From Oscillospiraceae bacterium (GTDB lineage: Bacteria > Bacillota > Clostridia > Oscillospirales > Ruminococcaceae): a DNA stretch of 64,000 nucleotides. The notes under the pieces were generated by a model, which made no database searches, was not told where the DNA came from, and saw only the letters and a program-made list of their open reading frames with translations. A program made the position numbers and the translations under genes. The DNA lies in contig JAGAKZ010000028.1 in NCBI GenBank assembly GCA_017848115.1, positions 1-64,000 of the forward strand. Direction: 5' to 3'. Shown here in pieces: positions 17,917-27,692 of the stretch. The stretch's first letter is position 1. The number at the start of each line of letters is the position of its first letter.

Positions 17917-17964
17917 AAAACAATAAACCGTCTGAAGTGTGAGCTTCGGACGGTTTATTGTTTT
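17917..17964. terminator. bidirectional terminator between uxaC and the solute-binding lipoprotein gene
   Basis: AAAACAATAAACCGTC plus GAAG on the left arm pair with CTTC and GACGGTTTATTGTTTT on the right arm: a stem of about 20 bp with one mismatch, A-rich left and T-rich right flanks. The right end overlaps the stop codon of the leftward gene. Confidence 0.85.
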
Positions 17965-20857
17965 ATTGTTTATTAAGCATTTCACTAAGATATAATCCTA
18001 CTTTGCTTTGAATATTGCTTGCAGTTTCTTCTGCTGTTTGTTTGGTTTCAATATACAGGTCAATATTTTCCTTTATAATTGATTCAATCTTTGAACCGGC
18101 TAAATTTAAGTGTGATGCTGATTCTATAAGCTCTATAATAAACTCTTTATCATTTTCTGATATATCAAGGATAAAATCAATCGGTTCTGATAAATCAGGA
18201 GTATATATACTCCCACTATGCCCATTATACTTGATTTCCTCTGAAAATTTATTTTCAAAGGACTTTCTCAAAATCGGAAACTCCTGAATCTGATTCTGAT
18301 ATTCTTCCGATAAAAACATTTTAATAAATGACCATGCACCATCAGGATCATCAGAAACAGATGAAACGGCAAATCCAAAGCTATTGCTTGTATCAATTGC
18401 AGACCTGCTTTTACCGGTGGCGGATACATCTGTTATCATATAATCGTTGTTATAAAGAGCAGATAAGTATCCTTTTGAAGAAAAGTCATAAATTTCGTGT
18501 ATTCCTGCTGTACCGTTATCGTTTATTGCATCGGGTATGTATTTAAGAAGGTTTATAAAATCATCAGATGTAAAATCGCATTTTGCATTTTCAAAATCAA
18601 TAAATTCATGTGCTTTTGATATAACCATATACCCCCATAACGATTTCTCGTTTGCATATTTAAAATGAATATCATCGGTTTTAATTTTTTCAAGAAATGC
18701 AGAATAATCATAAGGAATATTTTCATCAGTATTTCCAAGTACTATTCCTTTTAGATTAAATGATGTCATTATTCCATAAATTTTATTATCACTCGAATAC
18801 ATATCAAGCACTGAACTGAATAAATCATTTAAGTTCAGAGTTGAATCACTTTCAATAAGTGTTGTCAGATCAAGTAGAGCATTCTTTTCTGATAACAACA
18901 TAAAATCAAAATCCTTATCCAGAATATACAGATCAGGAATTTCAGAGTTAGCAACATCATGTCCAATATTACTTATCATTTTATCATCTGTTGAATAATC
19001 TCTTACTGTTATATAATAATCCAGATTTTCACGATTAAACTGTATGATTTTCTCGGATAAACCGATATTTTCTTTTATGTTATTACCTGCTACTATTATC
19101 TTTTTACGGTTATTAAATCTTTCTAATTCGTCATCACCAGCTTTTGTAAGTTTTAAATATACCCTATCTGTATCTGATACCATACGGCAGAAATAATTGT
19201 CCTCAGATATTTTTGAGAAAGATTCAATTTTATATATTAATCCGCTGTCAACAAGGTCGATTATTTTATCACTTTTTTCTTCCTTGTCATCATAACCATA
19301 TATAGCTGACCCTGATTCGTAATAAAAATCATACTGATCATCGCCATGAAAAACATTGGATATTCTGATATCTTTTAATGCATTAAGTTCATAAACTGCA
19401 TCTTCTGATAATTTCATTATTTTTATTTCAGTTCTATTTTCTATGCAGGAAAAGTAAACAGTATCTTTTGATTTAAATAATTGTGTAATGTAACTACCAT
19501 CACTACAAGAGTATATACATTCCTCAGATGCACCGTTTATATCATATCTGACTAACTTGTTATTATTGTCTGTATCAAACAAAGATAATAACAACATATT
19601 ATCTGTAATAATAAATGATGAATATTTATCATCAAAATCTTTTTCTATTTTTATAGATTTAACTTGTTTTTCGTCATTATACAAACTTAATTCATACTCT
19701 GTCTGGTCATAGTTTGACAATGCATATACCATATTATCCTCTGTAATTCCACACGCAATAACAGATGAACCCAAATCAATTTCGCCTTTTTTATTATGAT
19801 TGCTGTCAAATTTCTGGCATACAGAATGAATTTCAAAACGCATGTTAGGGAATATAATATAACTCTTTCCTGACTGATAACAATAATTTTCATATGATAA
19901 ACAATCCGGAACATCAACATTTTCTTTACGGTTTTCTTCTATATTATAGTAGAAACAATCCACATTTGTTCTGCACAACTTAACTTCACTTGAATATCCG
20001 CTATATATTTCTGCATCAGGTATTTCATATCTGTCTTTTACCGTACCATCTGACATTTCCATGTGGTTAATATACTTACCTGAATCATCATAAGAACAAA
20101 GTACAAGATAATCATCTTCAACAAATATATCAGATGCCCTTCCGGGCATATCATTTAGTTCTCTTGAATACAATATATCCATATCTTCATTCATACAATA
20201 CAAGTAAAGACTACCACTTCTGTTTGTTCCAAAAAAGAAAATCATTCCCTGACTATAACACATTCTGAAACAATTTCCTGCAAATCCTTCCTTATCCGTT
20301 ATATTACTCAGATTTATAGTTTGTAAGGGTTCAAGGTTCAAATCATATCTATACAAGAGTACTTCTCGTGAATTGATATCATCAGACAAAACAAGAATCA
20401 TATTATCTGTACATACTATAGTTTGAGGAAAATATTCAAGGGATATTGTTTTTTCAGTTTTTTCGGATTTTATATCTACATATGACAAATAAAAAATACT
20501 GTCATACATATATAACATATATAATCTGTCATTACTTATCTCTGCATCCATCATTTCATCATATGGTATATGTGTATTAATATTCAATTCTGAATTATTT
20601 TCTAGTGAGTAGATAGTGCATTTACCATCATCTTCACTTAAATTTTTCAATCCAAACTCATACAGAAAATCATTTCTTTTTATCACGTCTTCAATAAATG
20701 TAAAATCATCTGAAGGATATTCTTCTGTTTTGTAAAACAAAGAAATATAATTTTCATGATTTTTATCTGAATTTATAGTACTGCTACTCGTCTTACTGCA
20801 ACCTGATATAAAAAAAATAATAGTTAATAATATCAGGAATATTTTTTTGTTTTTCAT
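17963..20857 (-). CDS. large lipoprotein: N-terminal propeller-like region plus family 1 solute-binding domain
   Basis: A 964-residue secreted lipoprotein with a short signal and the lipobox FISGC (Cys near residue 20). Residues from about 40 to 560 are a string of short beta-rich segments with recurring 'V-x-LYRYD' and 'DDYLVLCSYDD'-type blades, suggesting a beta-propeller. Residues from about 590 to 900 look like an extracellular solute-binding protein (IIQFNRENLDYYITVRDY, SEIPDLYILDKDFDF, ALLDLTTLIESDSTLN, GAWSFIKMFLSEEYQNQ). No permease adjoins it, so it may be a sensor or an orphan binding protein. It lies at the end of the bacteriocin region, beyond a hairpin; any link is unproven. Confidence 0.72.
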   Translation of the reverse strand: MKNKKIFLILLTIIFFISGCSKTSSSTINSDKNHENYISLFYKTEEYPSDDFTFIEDVIKRNDFLYEFGLKNLSEDDGKCTIYSLENNSELNINTHIPYDEMMDAEISNDRLYMLYMYDSIFYLSYVDIKSEKTEKTISLEYFPQTIVCTDNMILVLSDDINSREVLLYRYDLNLEPLQTINLSNITDKEGFAGNCFRMCYSQGMIFFFGTNRSGSLYLYCMNEDMDILYSRELNDMPGRASDIFVEDDYLVLCSYDDSGKYINHMEMSDGTVKDRYEIPDAEIYSGYSSEVKLCRTNVDCFYYNIEENRKENVDVPDCLSYENYCYQSGKSYIIFPNMRFEIHSVCQKFDSNHNKKGEIDLGSSVIACGITEDNMVYALSNYDQTEYELSLYNDEKQVKSIKIEKDFDDKYSSFIITDNMLLLSLFDTDNNNKLVRYDINGASEECIYSCSDGSYITQLFKSKDTVYFSCIENRTEIKIMKLSEDAVYELNALKDIRISNVFHGDDQYDFYYESGSAIYGYDDKEEKSDKIIDLVDSGLIYKIESFSKISEDNYFCRMVSDTDRVYLKLTKAGDDELERFNNRKKIIVAGNNIKENIGLSEKIIQFNRENLDYYITVRDYSTDDKMISNIGHDVANSEIPDLYILDKDFDFMLLSEKNALLDLTTLIESDSTLNLNDLFSSVLDMYSSDNKIYGIMTSFNLKGIVLGNTDENIPYDYSAFLEKIKTDDIHFKYANEKSLWGYMVISKAHEFIDFENAKCDFTSDDFINLLKYIPDAINDNGTAGIHEIYDFSSKGYLSALYNNDYMITDVSATGKSRSAIDTSNSFGFAVSSVSDDPDGAWSFIKMFLSEEYQNQIQEFPILRKSFENKFSEEIKYNGHSGSIYTPDLSEPIDFILDISENDKEFIIELIESASHLNLAGSKIESIIKENIDLYIETKQTAEETASNIQSKVGLYLSEMLNKQ

Positions 20858-20884
20858 AATTTAAGTTTACCTCTCTGTATAATA

Positions 20885-20931
20885 AAAACATTCAACAATA
20901 AAAGCTTTTAGCCTATATTGCTGAATGTTTT
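20885..20931 (-). terminator. probable terminator of the agr/bacteriocin/ABC transcription unit
   Basis: AAAACATTCAACAAT (20885-20899) pairs with ATTGCTGAATGTTTT (20917-20931), 14 pairs and one mismatch, with T-rich sequence after it on the minus strand. Confidence 0.6.
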
Positions 20932-21009
20932 ATTTTCAACCATTACATAACATTATATGAATTATTTAACCAATCTGCAACATATACATTTTTATTTCAT
21001 AAGCTAATG

Positions 21010-21110
21010 ATTGCCTTAATGTTATATACAACACAACTATCAAAACACCCTAAAATAATCGCTCATACAAAACTCCAAGTATAATGTTACACATCATTTT
21101 TACAAACATA
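21010..21110 (-). pseudogene. decayed fragment of a second agrB gene
   Basis: Read leftward from the ATG at 21109 this gives MFVKMMCNIILGVLYERLF, then a TAG, then GVLIVVLYITLR. The intact AgrB at 24898-25476 has MLVNLICTIILGVLYERLFESILIVALYIPLR. The DNA is nearly identical in the middle, including about 23 consecutive bases at 21060-21082. The reading frame is kept except for one GAG-to-TAG change. Homology fades on both sides. This is a remnant of a duplicated or replaced agr locus. Confidence 0.8.
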
Positions 21111-21182
21111 GTTAAATACACCATTTTTATTTACGTTAAAATTTAATTTTTTAAGCTTCTCTAAGTGTATATTATTTACTTC

Positions 21183-21725
21183 TCAAACATCTTCCCACAT
21201 ATTATTGACTGCGTTCATTATTTCGGATATTTCTTTATAATGATTGTTTATAATCGTTTCTTTACTTTCTATTTCAGCTGAAAGTTCACTGTCATTTGGA
21301 ACATAATTAAGTTCTTTATCAATTGCAAGCATATAAATTTCATCATCTTCAAATACAGATACTCCATATTTCGTTTCCTTCATAATCTGTGGCCATATAA
21401 ATAAAGAACAACTTGGATATTGAATTTGTGCACCATTTTCTGTATGCTGTGATATTTTATTGTTTGAAGCAACATTTATAAATCCTCCTTGAAAAGAAAG
21501 ATATGAAGGCATTTTGATTAAATATGTATAATCAGCATCACTATAAGAATATCTCTGCCCTCGTAAACCTTCATCACTTTTCTCTAAGCTTGCGCATAAT
21601 TTGTGATATGGCTGATATTTAAGAAAATACCATGTTAAATTATATACCGCAAATATAAGTAAAATTATAATAAGCATTATAATAAGTTTTTTGAAACTAA
21701 TATTTTTGCTTTTATTTTGTTTCAT
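21183..21725 (-). CDS. membrane-anchored protein of unknown function in the bacteriocin ABC operon
   Basis: 180 residues: a basic N-terminus (MKQNKSKNISFKK), one membrane segment at about residues 13-33 and an extracytoplasmic domain of about 145 residues with no family I recognise. Its ATG overlaps the stop of the ABC ATPase gene (ATGA), so it is co-translated with the transporter. Position at the end of the bacteriocin/ABC operon suggests an accessory or self-protection role, by context only. Confidence 0.6.
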   Translation of the reverse strand: MKQNKSKNISFKKLIIMLIIILLIFAVYNLTWYFLKYQPYHKLCASLEKSDEGLRGQRYSYSDADYTYLIKMPSYLSFQGGFINVASNNKISQHTENGAQIQYPSCSLFIWPQIMKETKYGVSVFEDDEIYMLAIDKELNYVPNDSELSAEIESKETIINNHYKEISEIMNAVNNMWEDV

Positions 21726-22330
21726 AATCTTATAACATCCTTTTCTTCAGAAATAATTTTTTCATCATGTGTCACCATTATAACAGTTTTTCCTTGATTA
21801 TTAAAATCATGTAAAATTTTCATAACTATTTCGGTGTTTTCAAAATCTAGCGATCCTGTCGGTTCATCGGCAAGAATTATGTCACATTTTTTATACATTA
21901 ATCGTGCAAGAGCCGTTCTTTGTTGTTCTCCACCTGATAGCTTGTACACTTCAGTATTTTTTTTATCAAGCAATCCTAATGAATTCAATATTTCATCAAT
22001 AGATCTGCCTGAACGATGCTTTTTTTGAACATAGTTAAGATTTTCTTCAATAGTTTCTTCTTCTATCAACGCAAAATTCTGAAATAAAAATCCTACCTGT
22101 TCAGAAAAATACTTTCTCATATTTGATTTCTTATGTATATTAACTCCATTTACTGTTATAACACCGCTGTCCGGAAATTCGATTGCACCTATCATATTCA
22201 GAAGTGTAGTTTTTCCGCACCCACTTTTTCCGGCAAATACCTTAAAAGCTTTATCAGGAATCACTATACTGAAATCATTAAAGATTTTGTTATCACCAAA
22301 TGATTTTGTGATACTCTTTATTTCAATCAT
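21722..22330 (-). CDS. ABC transporter ATPase, bacteriocin (lactococcin 972-type) group
   Basis: A 202-residue ATPase with Walker A GKSGCGKTT at about residue 35, signature LSGGEQQRTALAR, Walker B IILADEPTGSLD and the switch His in MVTHDEKI. It belongs to the LolD/MacB-like class. The compact length and direct coupling to a roughly 670-aa seven-span permease match the ABC pair found in lactococcin 972 gene clusters. It overlaps the permease gene by 4 bp upstream and the anchored protein gene by 4 bp downstream. Role: energising export of the bacteriocin or producer immunity (inferred). Confidence 0.88.
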   Translation of the reverse strand: MIEIKSITKSFGDNKIFNDFSIVIPDKAFKVFAGKSGCGKTTLLNMIGAIEFPDSGVITVNGVNIHKKSNMRKYFSEQVGFLFQNFALIEEETIEENLNYVQKKHRSGRSIDEILNSLGLLDKKNTEVYKLSGGEQQRTALARLMYKKCDIILADEPTGSLDFENTEIVMKILHDFNNQGKTVIMVTHDEKIISEEKDVIRL

Positions 22331-24327
22331 AGACTACCACCTTTCAGAATTTTCATAGTATTGACTCTCTCAAATTTTTGTATATACCAAAGTGAAACAA
22401 AAATTTCAATAATCAGAAGTGATATAGTAGTAATAATAACCATATACCATACCGAAATATTAAACATAAGACAACTAATGAAATTTGTTATCATTCCAAT
22501 AAATGCTGTAAACAAATTCAACCCAAAGATTGTTGAATTTCTTTTCAATAAAGAATATCCTAATATCTTTTTTACAGACAGTGTTTTAGCGTTTATTGTA
22601 TATTCAAGTTTTATTATTACTATAGTAAGAAAGAATTCAAGAGCTATCATAACAACACTTATTATTGTATTTAACAACATTATACGTGTCAAACTATTTT
22701 TTATAGTTATAAATTGTTCTGAAACAACAGTAGCAATTGAATCAACAAATTTATTTTCTTCATTTAACTTATTTTCATCGACCAAAAACCTTGTTGTACA
22801 CAGCTCAAAACCAAAATATTTTATTGCCGGTACATCAAACTTATTGTGTATTTCTCTTATTCTCTCACCATCTATATTACAAAAAATTATTGCCGGACGT
22901 TCTATTATATCAAACCCATAATCTGACTCTGTTCCGTTTTCCTGAATATTCATATAAATAACTTTAGCATTAAAGTCATAAGTATCAAAATAATATGAAT
23001 ATGTATCTTCTGGAATTAGAATCCGCCCTCCAAGTTTATCAGAAATTTTTTCTGAACACAACTCCTGTGGAAACCCTTCCGGAATCAAAACTGTAAAATC
23101 ATAATCTGTTCTGATTCTTTCTTTTAATTTATCATCTGTAATCATAGAAGCATCATTGGTGAATAATACCTTATTCCCGTCATCATCACATACGTATATC
23201 TCTGAATATCTGATTTTATCTTTGTATAAGTAGTCAAGACAGATTTTATTTTTCAACAAATTATATATATCATATTTATTGGTTATCTCATCAGTTTCAC
23301 CTAATTCTTTTCTTCCGTTCTTACTTTTATAATAGCTGTAATCAGGAGTAAAATCTATAAAATACTGATCATTACACGTTTCAATTACAGGATAGTATTG
23401 AAGATATTTAATACTACCCATTACGAGATATAAATTTATAGAAATAGATGCTATCGTTATAATCAACGTCAAAGCTTTCATAAGATAACAGTTTGACAAA
23501 AGCGACTGATTTAAATTTGCTCCATAAATAATTTCCTTATAATCGTTCTTTAAAATCGATAATGGCAATACACCATTAATAATCAAAAAAACAGCAAAAG
23601 ATATTTTTAAATCATCTACATGATAATCAATATATATATATCGTTTTAATATCAAATATAAAAGAAAAAATATCAACATCAATATCAATGTATCCCAAAC
23701 AACAAATCTGAGTATAATACTGCCCTTTGAAGCTCCAAGCGAAATCCTCAGAAAGTTTCTTTTCTTGTCAAACTGAACCGAAAACCATGTCAGCATAAGT
23801 AAAAAAAGAAATGGTATAATCCAGATACAATCCAATATCCATTCTAAACCTGATTTATCTTCCTGATGAACATACGATGTCGGCAAATAACGATTAATCA
23901 AATAGTAAATCTGTTCTATTTCTTCTGCTGATGCATCAAAATAAAATCTTATTATATCAGATCGTCCAATTATTTCAGAAAAATCTTTTCTTATTACAAT
24001 GGTACTTCCTGAAAAGAAACTGTTGTATATTCCTTCTTTGATATCACACTGTTCACTTATTGATTCAAATTGTTCGCTATCTGAAAATATGCTTACTGAT
24101 ACTGATTTATAATTTCCAATATTAACATCAACTGCAAAAGCCTTTGGAAAACCTTTTTCTGCAACTTCATTTAATACATCATATAACTCTTCTCTTTTAT
24201 CTGTGTCAATATCAATATAATAAAACCGACCTGTAAACGTACACAAATAATTCTGAAACAATTCATTACTAAGAATAAAACATAAAAAAAATACTATTAA
24301 ACATGATAGATACTTTATTTTTCTCAT
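22327..24327 (-). CDS. bacteriocin-associated integral membrane protein (ABC permease, FtsX/MacB-like)
   Basis: A 666-residue permease. There is an N-terminal span (about residues 3-22), a large extracellular segment, a group of spans near 170-300, a second extracellular segment, and spans in the last 150 residues. Length and layout fit the 'bacteriocin-associated integral membrane (putative immunity) protein' family of lactococcin 972-type clusters. The frame opens at 24354, but the ATG at 24327 is chosen because GGTGA lies 7 bases upstream and the protein then begins with a proper hydrophobic N-terminus (MRKIKYLSCLIVFFL). It follows the small secreted protein gene and is coupled to the ATPase. 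Confidence 0.82.
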   Translation of the reverse strand: MRKIKYLSCLIVFFLCFILSNELFQNYLCTFTGRFYYIDIDTDKREELYDVLNEVAEKGFPKAFAVDVNIGNYKSVSVSIFSDSEQFESISEQCDIKEGIYNSFFSGSTIVIRKDFSEIIGRSDIIRFYFDASAEEIEQIYYLINRYLPTSYVHQEDKSGLEWILDCIWIIPFLFLLMLTWFSVQFDKKRNFLRISLGASKGSIILRFVVWDTLILMLIFFLLYLILKRYIYIDYHVDDLKISFAVFLIINGVLPLSILKNDYKEIIYGANLNQSLLSNCYLMKALTLIITIASISINLYLVMGSIKYLQYYPVIETCNDQYFIDFTPDYSYYKSKNGRKELGETDEITNKYDIYNLLKNKICLDYLYKDKIRYSEIYVCDDDGNKVLFTNDASMITDDKLKERIRTDYDFTVLIPEGFPQELCSEKISDKLGGRILIPEDTYSYYFDTYDFNAKVIYMNIQENGTESDYGFDIIERPAIIFCNIDGERIREIHNKFDVPAIKYFGFELCTTRFLVDENKLNEENKFVDSIATVVSEQFITIKNSLTRIMLLNTIISVVMIALEFFLTIVIIKLEYTINAKTLSVKKILGYSLLKRNSTIFGLNLFTAFIGMITNFISCLMFNISVWYMVIITTISLLIIEIFVSLWYIQKFERVNTMKILKGGSL

Positions 24328-24347
24328 ATAATTTTCACCATTATTAT

Positions 24348-24387
24348 AAACCATACTATGAAAATTATTTTATTCATAGTATGGTTT
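24348..24387 (-). other. hairpin between the bacteriocin-like gene and its ABC genes
   Basis: AAACCATACTATGAA (24348-24362) and TTCATAGTATGGTTT (24373-24387) form a perfect 15-bp stem with a 10-nt loop. The minus-strand tail is only moderately T-rich. It could act as a partial terminator that leaves more transcript for the secreted peptide than for the transporter. Confidence 0.65.
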
Positions 24388-24400
24388 ATAAAGATTTATA

Positions 24401-24835
24401 TTATTTGTAGGAACTTCCTCTACTTATTCCATTTACTGCACCTACATAGTCATTATCAAAATTCATACAATAACTAACATTATCATCTTTATGAGTCAAT
24501 TCCTTTTTGCTCCATTCATTATTGTTCTTAGAGAAACCCCAAAGATATCCACTATCATGTCCATTTCTGCAAACTCCAGCCTTACAGCTATAATCAGAAC
24601 TTCTTGCCCAGGTATAATCTTCATTTACAAGAGTCATATCGTACCCATAGCAAAATTCCCCAATATGATTTCCACTGCCATTAAGAACCTCACAAGTAAA
24701 TTCCCATTCACCACCACCAAAATAAACTGCATTAATTCCGGTAGTTTGTTCTGCGTTTACATTAACACTTGTCATACCTGTCACAATAGTAAAAGCTACT
24801 ATAGCACTAATACCAACTGTCTTAAATTTCTTCAT
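24401..24835 (-). CDS. secreted Cys-rich peptide, putative lactococcin 972-like bacteriocin precursor
   Basis: 144 residues with a clear Sec signal (MKKFKTVGISAIVAFTIVTGMTSVNVNA, cleavage probably after residue 28). The mature part of about 116 residues opens with AVYFGGGEWEF, resembling the Gly-rich, Trp-containing start of mature lactococcin 972 family peptides. It has aromatic-rich segments and five Cys (TCEV, FCYG, SCKAGVC, SYCMN), unlike classical Cys-free lactococcin 972, and it is longer. The downstream permease and ATPase are the pair normally found with that family, which is the main support. It lies 62 bp after agrB. It could instead be a secreted effector of another kind. Confidence 0.6.
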   Translation of the reverse strand: MKKFKTVGISAIVAFTIVTGMTSVNVNAEQTTGINAVYFGGGEWEFTCEVLNGSGNHIGEFCYGYDMTLVNEDYTWARSSDYSCKAGVCRNGHDSGYLWGFSKNNNEWSKKELTHKDDNVSYCMNFDNDYVGAVNGISRGSSYK

Positions 24836-24897
24836 AATAGACTACCTCTCATCTTTTAATAAATTTTGCACCTATAATCTTTCATCTGGTATATCTC

Positions 24898-25476
24898 CTA
24901 GATGAAACCTGACCCTTTGTTTTTTCTGCCCATCACCAGCATAACCGCTACCAATCCAAGCGACAAACTAACACATTCAGCTATTGTATTCCATTTCGTT
25001 AAAATACTGACCACAAATAAAAGAACTTCTATCGCAAGAATTTGTCTTGACCTTCTCTTAAAAACCTTATATTCTATTTTTTCAAGAGGTTTATTTTTAT
25101 CCGGTACTGGCGAAACCAAAAAAATAATTATTCCACTCATTATACATATGATGAAACAGATAGTGTTTCCAAGTTTGAAAAACTTTATCACTGAGAGAAG
25201 TAAAAACATCATAACTAATGAGTAAACAAAACATCTAAATGATGTCTTAGCATGAAAACCACCGGCATAACTTCTTAATGGTATATACAATGCAACTATC
25301 AATATACTCTCAAATAACCGCTCATACAAAACTCCAAGTATGATGGTACATATCAGGTTTACAAGCATTGTCAAAAGTTGTTGTATACCATATTGGCAAA
25401 TAGCTTCATCATCACTGATTATTATTTTGTTATCAGTCATATATCCAGTGATTTTACATGACAATCTGTAAAACAT
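24898..25476 (-). CDS. agrB: AgrB-like accessory regulator protein (peptide cysteine protease)
   Basis: A 192-residue polytopic membrane protease that cleaves and cyclises the AgrD peptide. The catalytic His and Cys are visible in YAGGFHAKTSFRCF (His-x6-Cys), after the typical LYIPLRSYAGG. Four to six hydrophobic segments follow. The frame allows a TTG at 25479, but the ATG at 25476 shares one base with the agrD stop (TGATG) and is preferred. A decayed copy of part of this gene lies at 21010-21110. Order agrD-agrB after the kinase suggests an autoinducing circuit. Confidence 0.9.
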   Translation of the reverse strand: MFYRLSCKITGYMTDNKIIISDDEAICQYGIQQLLTMLVNLICTIILGVLYERLFESILIVALYIPLRSYAGGFHAKTSFRCFVYSLVMMFLLLSVIKFFKLGNTICFIICIMSGIIIFLVSPVPDKNKPLEKIEYKVFKRRSRQILAIEVLLFVVSILTKWNTIAECVSLSLGLVAVMLVMGRKNKGSGFI

Positions 25477-25619
25477 CAAATTTTTCGAAGTTTTCTTGCG
25501 TTTTCAGGAAGTGTCGGCTGATATGTAAGCCATGTACAAGTAGTATTAACTGCCATCGTTGTTATCATCACCGCAAGTGTAGCCAAAAATCCGGCATATT
25601 TGTAAATTAATTTTGTCAT
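25476..25619 (-). CDS. agrD: AgrD-like cyclic autoinducer peptide precursor
   Basis: A 47-residue precursor. It has an amphipathic/hydrophobic leader MTKLIYKYAGFLATLAVMIT, a core around NTTCTWLTYQ with the single Cys for the thiolactone, and the acidic/basic AgrB recognition tail PTLPENARKLRKI. The PxxPE tail is characteristic of Firmicute cyclic lactone autoinducers. The ATG at 25619 is chosen over an upstream ATG at 25658 because GAAAGGTGGGG lies just before it. It overlaps agrB by one base. The exact ring size (probably Cys plus four or five residues) cannot be read from the sequence. Confidence 0.9.
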   Translation of the reverse strand: MTKLIYKYAGFLATLAVMITTMAVNTTCTWLTYQPTLPENARKLRKI

Positions 25620-25658
25620 TACATTTCCCCACCTTTCATATTTTTTCTCAGCACCCAC

Positions 25659-25687
25659 ATTATATCATATATTTTGCTGATTTTCGG
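25659..25687 (-). promoter_or_regulatory. agrD promoter
   Basis: A good -10 (TATAAT, minus strand 25664-25659) with no recognisable -35 at the right distance (CCGAAA at about 25687-25682). This is what is expected of an activator-dependent promoter; the direct repeats abut the -35 position. Confidence 0.65.
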
Positions 25688-25690
25688 GGA

Positions 25691-25725
25691 AATGGTACGA
25701 ATTACACGCTATAATGGTACGAATT
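25691..25725 (-). promoter_or_regulatory. tandem binding site for the LytTR regulator
   Basis: AATGGTACGAATT occurs twice, at 25691-25703 and 25713-25725, a perfect 13-bp direct repeat with a 22-bp period (two helical turns). LytTR-domain regulators bind about 9-bp direct repeats with this spacing. The pair ends just upstream of the agrD -35 position and lies in the gap after the kinase gene. Confidence 0.75.
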
Positions 25726-25729
25726 GATT

Positions 25730-26953
25730 TTATACATATAACATTGCTGTAACAGTAAACAAATTATTTTCATGTGAAACTTTTATATTTCCTCCATACT
25801 TTTTTACTGTATGTTCTACACTCTTTAATCCTATCCCATGACCCGATATATTATGTGTTTCGGGCATTCCATTAACAATTCTGAGATTTTGTGAACATGT
25901 ATTCTGCATTGAGATAAACAACATATTTTTTTCATACTTGATACCGATAAATACATTTGGTGATTTTTCATCTTTTATTGCATTAATAACATTATCAGCC
26001 AGATTTCCTAAAATCACATTTATATCAAACGAATCGATGTTTAAATTTTCAGGAATTAATATTTCAGATTTTATATTTGTATTAGTGTTCTGCAACCGAG
26101 ATAACTTATAGTTAAGCAAACTATCAATTTCATAATTTCCCGAATTTATAATTTTTTCAGAAATTGTAAGTTCATCAAACGAACGGTTCAGATATTTTCC
26201 TAATTCTTCGTATTTTCCGCTTTCAAAAAGTGAATTCATTTTTATGATATGATTTTTTAAATCATGTCTGAAATACCTCTCCTGCTCCTGAAGCTGATAA
26301 ACAATATCAAGTTGGTTAGAATAAGCCTTTACCTGTTGTTCTATCATTTCCTGTTCGTAAATTTTAGTATAAGCCTTATCAAGAGAGCCAAACATATAAA
26401 ATACAACTACATTAATAAAAATAAGCAGTGAAGCTATCAACAGCATCTGTACATTATATTCAGACATCGTAATTATCGTAATACATATACTTGATAATGG
26501 TATAATAATCACAAATAACATATTGCCACCACTTATTTTGTTAAACCTACGTCCTCTGAATACATAATCTATCGCAAGAGCTACCCCATAAAAACCTAAC
26601 GCTGTCATAAATCCTGAATCAATAACAACCGATCTTCCTACAAAGAAATAAAAACCACAGTCAATCAAAATATTAAGAGCATAGCAAAGTGAACCTATAC
26701 CAATGTTGTACAATACTTTTTTTCCATAACAAAATGTAGCTAAATATATAAACAATAAGTTTGAACACAAATTTAACAACGGAATATTTATGGTTAAATA
26801 GACACCGCTATTGACTATAAAAAAAAGAATCATTATAACAATATTCAATAATTTTATGTTACTGTCTTTATAAAAACATCGGAATAGTTTCATATATGCA
26901 TATATTCTCAGACCATTTGATAAAAGATATATTGCATTTTCCAAAGTCAACAT
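25730..26953 (-). CDS. agrC: AgrC-like sensor histidine kinase (GHKL type)
   Basis: A 407-residue kinase: about six membrane segments (residues 1-195), a coiled region (KIYEQEMIEQQVKAY), the phospho-acceptor His in YFRHDLKNHIIKMNSLF, then a GHKL ATPase domain with N box NVILGNLADNVINAI and G box GHGIGLKSVEHTV. This is the AgrC/ComD-type layout for sensing a cyclic peptide. The frame runs up to 26998 inside the regulator gene; the ATG at 26953 (MLTLENAIYLL), two bases after that gene's stop and preceded by AGGTGG, is preferred. Cognate regulator and signal genes flank it. Confidence 0.88.
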   Translation of the reverse strand: MLTLENAIYLLSNGLRIYAYMKLFRCFYKDSNIKLLNIVIMILFFIVNSGVYLTINIPLLNLCSNLLFIYLATFCYGKKVLYNIGIGSLCYALNILIDCGFYFFVGRSVVIDSGFMTALGFYGVALAIDYVFRGRRFNKISGGNMLFVIIIPLSSICITIITMSEYNVQMLLIASLLIFINVVVFYMFGSLDKAYTKIYEQEMIEQQVKAYSNQLDIVYQLQEQERYFRHDLKNHIIKMNSLFESGKYEELGKYLNRSFDELTISEKIINSGNYEIDSLLNYKLSRLQNTNTNIKSEILIPENLNIDSFDINVILGNLADNVINAIKDEKSPNVFIGIKYEKNMLFISMQNTCSQNLRIVNGMPETHNISGHGIGLKSVEHTVKKYGGNIKVSHENNLFTVTAMLYV

Positions 26954-26954
26954 A

Positions 26955-27692
26955 TTACTTTTCACCACCTGATAAAACTTTATCGTGCACCGATTCAATA
27001 AGTTTCTGATTGATTTTATCCTGAAAAGTTTTACTTATTGAAAATTTTTCATCATTTATAAGAGTAATCTCTCCGGGAGAAAATCCGGAAACATAATCAA
27101 TATTAATTGCATAACATCTATGTATCCTCAGAAAAAGATTTTCAGGTAACTTCTTGATTTCATCACTCAGTTTTCCGTATATTTCTATAGTTTCTTTTTT
27201 TGTCTTTATCAGTAGTTTTTTTCTGTTACTCTGCAAGTAAATTATATCCTTGACCCAGATACTGTACTCTTTTCGATTCAGTGTATATTTATAATATGAT
27301 TTAGTAGTAACAAATCCGGTAATATAATCTTTTAGTGTAGACCATACCTTTTCTTCCTTAACCGGCTTAACTATAAAATCAAAAGGTCTGTTTTGAAACA
27401 ACTCCATGGCATATGTTTTCAGAGCAGAAATATACACTATCTGCACTTTATAATCCTCTTTTATCTTTCTAAGAATATTTCCCACCTTTATGCCGTTTAA
27501 CTCATATAATTCAATGTCAAGAAAAACCAGATCAAACTGACACTGATTATCCCAGTATTCAAGAAACTTTTCTCCACTTTGAAAAATTTCTACCTCAAAC
27601 TTTTCCAAGCTAAAATCCGAATAATTAAGCACATATTTCTCTATATCAAAACACACCCTGATATCGTCATCAACTATTGCAATTTTTATCAT
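26955..27692 (-). CDS. agrA: AgrA-like response regulator, LytTR DNA-binding domain
   Basis: 245 residues: receiver domain (IAIVDDD acidic pocket at the N-terminus, phospho-acceptor Asp in LVFLDIEL near residue 59, KPVKEEK Lys) and a C-terminal LytTR domain (about 135-240; WVKDIIYLQSNRKKLLIKT, LRIHRCYAINIDYV). It would be phosphorylated by the kinase encoded next and bind direct repeats such as those at 25691-25725, activating agrD-agrB and the secreted peptide. It is the first gene of the leftward unit; its own promoter is not clear. Confidence 0.9.
   Translation of the reverse strand: MIKIAIVDDDIRVCFDIEKYVLNYSDFSLEKFEVEIFQSGEKFLEYWDNQCQFDLVFLDIELYELNGIKVGNILRKIKEDYKVQIVYISALKTYAMELFQNRPFDFIVKPVKEEKVWSTLKDYITGFVTTKSYYKYTLNRKEYSIWVKDIIYLQSNRKKLLIKTKKETIEIYGKLSDEIKKLPENLFLRIHRCYAINIDYVSGFSPGEITLINDEKFSISKTFQDKINQKLIESVHDKVLSGGEK

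Follow-up and report, generated by a model that had tools for sequence, protein, structure and literature searches.

Does an agr-type quorum-sensing circuit govern the bacteriocin-type genes that directly follow it? The question is raised by a locus on contig JAGAKZ010000028.1 (assembly GCA_017848115.1; positions 1 to 64,000 of the forward strand) from an Oscillospiraceae bacterium, a rumen Ruminococcus relative. The whole stretch of 64,000 nucleotides is called the window here. Eight genes, all encoded on the minus strand, make up the cassette: LytTR regulator, GHKL kinase, agrD, agrB, secreted 144-residue protein, DUF1430 permease, ATP-binding cassette (ABC) ATPase and anchored protein (Table 1). 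The gene order, strand and coordinates given in the original prediction were all correct on re-check. The locus is likely to be an autoinducing agr circuit joined to a mediterrocin-type bacteriocin module, with the bacteriocin as its local output; the secreted peptide would then be under control of the signal.

AgrB and AgrD are both present, and the GHKL kinase and the LytTR regulator adjoin agrBD, as in the agr-system family. Autoinduction by a processed cyclic peptide is proposed for the cassette, and the ring of the peptide is probably formed by five residues from the Cys of AgrD. The kinase gene more likely starts at 26953, with an ATG that directly adjoins the regulator gene, than at the listed TTG (26998). 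In the case of the mediterrocin part, the secreted protein matches NF052268 above the cut-off and from end to end of the profile (1–115 of 115), and the DUF1430 permease and ABC ATPase lie alongside. An N-terminal signal peptide was found in this protein by a custom and crude rule.

The system had been described as lactococcin 972-like. The profile of the lactococcin 972 family (PF09683) gave no match at E <= 10 in the small protein or across the genome, and membership of this family was rejected on sequence; the family is mediterrocin instead. The description is a loose one: the best family of the ATPase is TIGR03608, though its score is below the curated cut-off (217.8 vs 254.85 bits), and the authors of the mediterrocin paper place their protein under lactococcin 972 at 18% identity (PMC12345188). 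The permease was expected in the bacteriocin-associated integral membrane protein family TIGR01654, but it scores 20.9 bits against the curated cut-off of 189.35, and it is a DUF1430 protein. The two points on which the prediction was staked are both found: the peptide resembles a bacteriocin family, and an agr gene, agrD, co-occurs with the block in another genome (G006, below). A three-sequence profile of the peptide found no relative in the PDB, giving chance matches only, and no known structured RNA of Rfam reaches its gathering score anywhere in the window. The anatomy of the cassette (families, order, repeat pair with its rarity, and hairpin) is solid from the sequence.

Table 1. Positions of the cassette genes and associated features in the window
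Feature	Positions	Strand	Evidence
LytTR response regulator (AgrA-like)	26955..27692	-	PF04397 60.9 bits; PF00072 (receiver) 51.3 bits
GHKL sensor kinase (AgrC-like)	25730..26953	-	PF14501 64.2 bits; ATG start taken
Direct-repeat pair, TTCGTACCATT twice	25691..25723	-	Exact 11-mers at 25691-25701 and 25713-25723, 22 bp start to start
agrD, 47-residue pheromone precursor	25476..25619	-	TIGR04223 44.9 bits, cut-off 19
agrB, pheromone-processing membrane peptidase	24898..25479	-	PF04647 130.7 bits, cut-off 23
Secreted mediterrocin-family protein, 144 residues	24401..24835	-	NF052268 81.2 bits, cut-off 40
RNA stem-loop, 13 bp, no T-tract, between bacteriocin and permease genes	24350..24385	-	z -6.7; 0/200 shuffles equally stable
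DUF1430 permease (mdcH-like)	22327..24354	-	PF07242 29.2 bits, cut-off 28.2
ABC ATPase (mdcI-like)	21722..22330	-	TIGR03608 (L_ocin_972_ABC) 217.8 bits, top match among 201 families
Membrane-anchored protein	21183..21725	-	No family above cut-off in profile searches
agrB relic, 102 bp, in-frame stop, behind cargo	21015..21116	-	84% identical to cassette agrB, blastn E 2e-29
Segment of 6.8 kb missing in G003	20882..27682		Flank alignment
Solute-binding-protein-like lipoprotein	17963..20857	-	PF13416 34.4 bits

Repeat pair, proposed read-through and hairpin

In the scheme proposed here, where signal structure, DNA binding, read-through, killing and immunity are inferred, AgrB would process AgrD to a cyclic peptide, and the GHKL kinase would sense this peptide. 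The LytTR regulator would then occupy the repeat pair in front of agrD, activating agrD–agrB. Read-through over 62 bp would carry expression into the mediterrocin-type gene, and the protein would be exported by Sec. The stem-loop would keep the bacteriocin mRNA more abundant than that of the three genes behind it (permease, ATPase and anchored protein), whose products would confer self-protection.

LytTR regulator sites are generally known as direct repeats. The LytTR regulator FsrA is reported to bind sites upstream of its targets (PMC5454873). The repeats reported ahead of agrD in the window are real, and the exact pair, upstream of a TATAAT at 25659–25664 (by eye), is a probable regulator site. 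The single 11-mer TTCGTACCATT is no rarer than chance in the window when one mismatch is allowed (2 found, 1.28 expected); for the pair at 22 bp, by contrast, no match of that quality arose in 200 dinucleotide-shuffled versions of the region. A degenerate pattern, TTCGTNCC N10-16 TTCGTNCC, which was defined only after inspecting these sites, has a single match in the genome of the window (3.34 Mb, about 81% complete). Across the genus (11 genomes) it has four matches, of which one is that in the window, two are in G006 and one is in G010; the reversed control has one match (G007). All four precede agr/cargo cassettes, one of them decayed: by eye, the two G006 sites are each upstream of an agrD, and the G010 site is upstream of small relic frames, a lipoprotein gene and a permease-like gene. 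These results suggest that the regulator serves mainly its own operon. At a spacing of 20–23 bp, a repeat pair exceeds the shuffles (p <= 0.01) in six of 20 agr promoters (the window, L024, L030, L031, L048 and L051).

The gap of 62 bp between agrB and the peptide gene contains no terminator-like site, and none of the best 60 of 63 promoter-like sites starts in it. Behind the peptide gene, the stem-loop is a possible mRNA-end protector or attenuator. Folding covered the window and 13 further loci, with L039, L044 and L047 left out, and 11 of the 13 gave z of -2.8 or lower (L035 and L041 did not). Among the 12 agr-linked loci folded, window included, a hairpin with z <= -3.0 is present behind the secreted gene in 10. 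As a background, by a simpler stem rule, a stem of at least 13 bp is present at 44 of 253 gene ends. Two of the 11 loci, L025 and L027, are mediterrocin loci that have no agr in front, so the hairpin goes with the weapon module.

Mediterrocin loci and the genes behind agrB

Mediterrocin was found above the cut-off in 2/11 genomes of the genus, 3/297 of the family, 1/394 of the order and 2/391 of the class, the window being counted where it is in the group. For G759, its family (3/206) and its order (3/225) gave an identical set of three genomes. These genome samples overlap, and the loci are seven in total: G000 (the window), G006, G759, G842, G909, G1224 and G1057. Homologues of the permease, ATPase and anchored protein are present at all seven, the anchored gene preceding the permease gene in G1057. 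The anchored-protein homologues at the six other loci are 25–29% identical to that of the window (E 2e-6 or better), and the protein is a candidate immunity protein. Weak NF052268 matches below the cut-off in G362 and G689 were discarded as chance. Carriage by plasmids or phages was rejected, as a tblastn search with the peptide had no match among 72,556 records of plasmids and 50,697 of phages; viral contigs held no relative of the peptide or the permease.

At agr loci of the genus and its relatives, small secreted proteins other than mediterrocin are found directly behind agrB. The gene next to each of 114 AgrB frames was classified by a script with a crude signal-peptide rule. It encodes a small secreted protein in 23 cases and a large secreted one in 10; in 41 it is another gene of the same strand, in 33 it is on the opposite strand and in 4 it is far away, and 3 frames are at a contig end. 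The frames were ranked by score similarity to the window AgrB, without a tree. In the top ten, which include the window, a small secreted protein is next in seven by script and in eight by hand; the three script negatives are L042 (a 1029-residue protein next), L053 (590 residues) and L030, where the secreted gene is present and was missed through overlap of open reading frames. The lower ranks gave 2/15, 5/35 and, in the last, 9/53. In the background, 8/391 genes are small and secreted. Fisher tests against this background gave p of 2.3e-9 for the top ten and 2.8e-10 for all 113 ranked frames, and for stretches of the wider family 1.3e-4 (10/78), or 5.0e-4 (9/78) without the false call L097, a response regulator called secreted. 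As the loci are related, these p values are guides only. Two frames each were scored in L039 and L041; L049, L050 and L045 were left out of the counts as repeats of L031, L030 and L043; L029, with its partial agrB, and L024, which lacks agrB, went unscored. The wider survey of agrB consisted of 80 stretches from among the matches listed. Among the other agr loci of the genus, the small secreted gene was found directly behind agrB in 4/11 by script.

Several points weigh against the joined circuit in the window. Outside the genus, the upstream DNA can be read at four mediterrocin loci, and none of the four has agr directly ahead (in G842 the contig ends within the peptide gene, the upstream side is unreadable, and the locus was excluded from this count). 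An AgrB profile search of the stretches around the loci of G759, G1224 and G1057 found none, and in G909 an agrB frame (L027:17765-18334) is 7.9 kb from the mediterrocin gene on the opposite strand. Therefore mediterrocin has no need of agr. The hairpin is also not confined to agr loci, as L025 and L027 show, and in the other 14 of the 20 agr promoters no repeat pair is better than the shuffles. By script, the small secreted gene is lacking directly behind agrB at 7/11 other agr loci of the genus and 68/78 of the wider family. Moreover, in G006, a second species of the genus, AgrD (31.9 bits, cut-off 19) does lie ahead of the mediterrocin–permease–ATPase–anchored block, but no agrB stands between; the cassette has a relic of a second AgrD, and no agrB is on the contig, which begins just upstream.

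Alternatively, the two parts might be loose neighbours: the agr operon would stop after agrB, and the bacteriocin block would have its own promoter and independent regulation. The lack of agr ahead of mediterrocin outside the genus fits this, and promoter-like matches are frequent in the region (63 vs 54.8 expected). We consider it rather unlikely, as the genes share one strand across a short gap with no terminator-like site, AgrD precedes the mediterrocin block in G006 too, and a small secreted protein stands right behind agrB in most of the nearest frames, far above the background. The joined circuit is preferred.

Other cargo was observed around these genes. In G006 (L029:1-3045), genes for a different Cys-containing secreted protein and for two permease-like proteins come immediately after the agrB 3' end (by eye). 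In L042:9840-14012 (Clostridium pascui), agrD–agrB is followed by the 1029-residue protein, a lantibiotic dehydratase lookalike by eye, and a 70-residue frame. In L037, agrB and the secreted gene are separated by a transposase-like frame of opposite orientation (L037:7777-8079, named by eye), and in L040 the secreted gene is elsewhere nearby, not directly behind agrB. G146 has two agrB genes separated by about 6.5 kb (L093), and behind each lies a gene for a secreted protein longer than 1,000 residues. Proteins of about 2,200–2,340 residues with similar starts are behind agrB in L100, L109, L115 and L139. In L044:1993-9054, a second agrD (35.4 bits) is ahead of a 2171-residue protein that combines RHS repeats and dockerin domains with a Scabin-like domain at the C terminus. 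This protein, preceded by an agr gene, is possibly a polymorphic toxin attached to the cellulosome.

Replacement and possible gain or loss of cargo

L030 and L048 share 91.8% identical DNA over 2,428 bp, covering the kinase gene, agrD and agrB, and their AgrD is identical. The match stops at the agrB 3' end, and the mature parts of the secreted proteins are unrelated, with a local score of 29 that 317 of 500 shuffles also reached. The pair is one clear case of cargo replaced behind the same AgrD. L048 and L046 match at about 75% as far as the agrB 3' end and once more along 611 bp in the ATPase gene. Proteins of the genes in between are 20–28% identical, and the secreted proteins have no significant match. 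In several related loci it looks as if the weapon could change and the trigger persist. In cargo of other genera (L095, L103, L138, L144, L151 and L035), the signal-peptide region is conserved and the mature parts are more divergent; L095 and L138 share 76% identity over 29 residues only.

The agr part seems to be a dock in the genus and near relatives, behind which secreted-protein modules are exchanged. The pattern is clear in one locus pair and statistical elsewhere. Tentatively, and at somewhat less than an even chance, the agr operon of rumen ruminococci might be a general dock: a fixed unit of signal, sensor and promoter, with modules of antibacterial protein, hairpin and self-protection or export genes swapped by recombination at the agrB end, and with most docked proteins in no known family. 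Ten of the secreted proteins were searched against Pfam and NCBIfam, and only one domain is above a curated cut-off, a peptidoglycan-binding domain in L039.

Such cargo can also be read otherwise. The secreted protein of the window might be no weapon but a protein under agr control that serves as a signal, in adhesion or on the cell wall, with the permease and ATPase as an envelope-stress sensor. Most cargo of the relatives is in no known family, one protein has the peptidoglycan-binding domain and one has a dockerin, all of which would suit this explanation. The window protein, however, is above the cut-off of a family whose founder proved to be antibacterial by gene disruption (PMC12345188), and we regard a role other than that of a weapon as distinctly improbable.

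The agrB relic behind the cargo could have arisen by recombination between agr cassettes. In the relative G003, the segment is missing between flanks that are near-identical to those of the window, at 98.8% for a length of 12,883 bp and 97.1% for 1,464 bp. Since G003 keeps the first ten bases of the regulator gene and a 29-bp remainder, loss in G003 is favoured, and G003 as an ancestral empty site is disfavoured; insertion into G000 or an assembly fault may also account for the gap. The missing segment has a G+C content of 29.0%, the flanks 36.6% and the adjoining lipoprotein gene 28.9%, and the lipoprotein gene is possibly in the same low-G+C island as the cassette. Large lipoproteins resembling solute-binding proteins are also present close to agr genes elsewhere, in L036, L038, L039 and L040, and they are perhaps cargo or a peptide-binding partner.

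The relic within the segment, the lack of the segment in G003 and the decayed cassettes L041 and L065 raise the question of whether the locus itself is a decaying, non-functional remnant. All eight frames of the window are open, and the AgrB, AgrD, mediterrocin, DUF1430, ATPase, LytTR and GHKL matches span nearly the whole profiles. A remnant is thus very improbable.

Comparison with known systems

In streptococcal blp loci, a peptide pheromone is combined with exchangeable bacteriocin cargo, the pheromone being linear and the cargo small class II peptides. Unlike these loci, the window has an AgrD-type signal and larger Sec proteins. The pln locus of Lactobacillus plantarum is not known to include AgrB. 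Agr-like regulators govern bacteriocins in that locus, with a linear pheromone (PMC3673130).

Mediterrocin, which was isolated in pure form from Mediterraneibacter gnavus and verified by disrupting its gene, inhibits gut bacteria (PMC12345188). The mdc cluster resembles the window in a Sec-secreted NF052268-family protein, a DUF1430 permease and an ABC ATPase. The mdc cluster includes mobile elements as well as a transcription regulator. The words 'agr' and 'quorum' occur 0 times in the main text of the paper, whereas the window has an agr circuit ahead (PMC12345188). In Enterococcus faecalis, fsr and enterocin O16/EntV likewise combine an agr-type circuit, a LytTR regulator and a Sec-secreted bacteriocin, and thus agr-type control of a secreted bacteriocin is already known (PMC5454873). 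The ef1097 gene, however, is separated from fsr by 800 kb, with a LytTR site of its own, whereas the bacteriocin gene of the window is the next after agrB (PMC5454873). The lactococcin 972 locus is like the window in its small secreted protein, transporter and immunity genes, and differs in that the window peptide has no PF09683 match and has agr in front (PMC4289311). In Staphylococcus shinii, a lactococcin 972 cluster and agr are both described, more than 500 kb apart (PMC11161930). Among the matches listed in the open-licence literature on mediterrocin, lactococcin 972 and agr in Ruminococcus, rumen or bacteriocin loci, we recognised no agr–mediterrocin or agr–bacteriocin linkage of this kind.

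The Hungate1000 survey counts cyclic-lactone autoinducers as a bacteriocin class (PMC13289728); some of them may be triggers of neighbouring weapons. According to a review, evidence of peptide signalling in the rumen is limited and its effect on gene regulation is unclear (PMC10838665). The regulation of mediterrocin was left by its authors for further study (PMC12345188), and an agr circuit ahead of a mediterrocin-family gene gives a direct, testable answer in one lineage. The agr dock with replaceable cargo is the aspect that merits testing. If it is true, the genes behind agrB would reveal many new bacteriocin families, which could be found by position and not by similarity, and strains with the same signal could answer with different weapons. 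Synthetic cyclic peptides could then induce cryptic antibacterials in fibre-degrading rumen bacteria.

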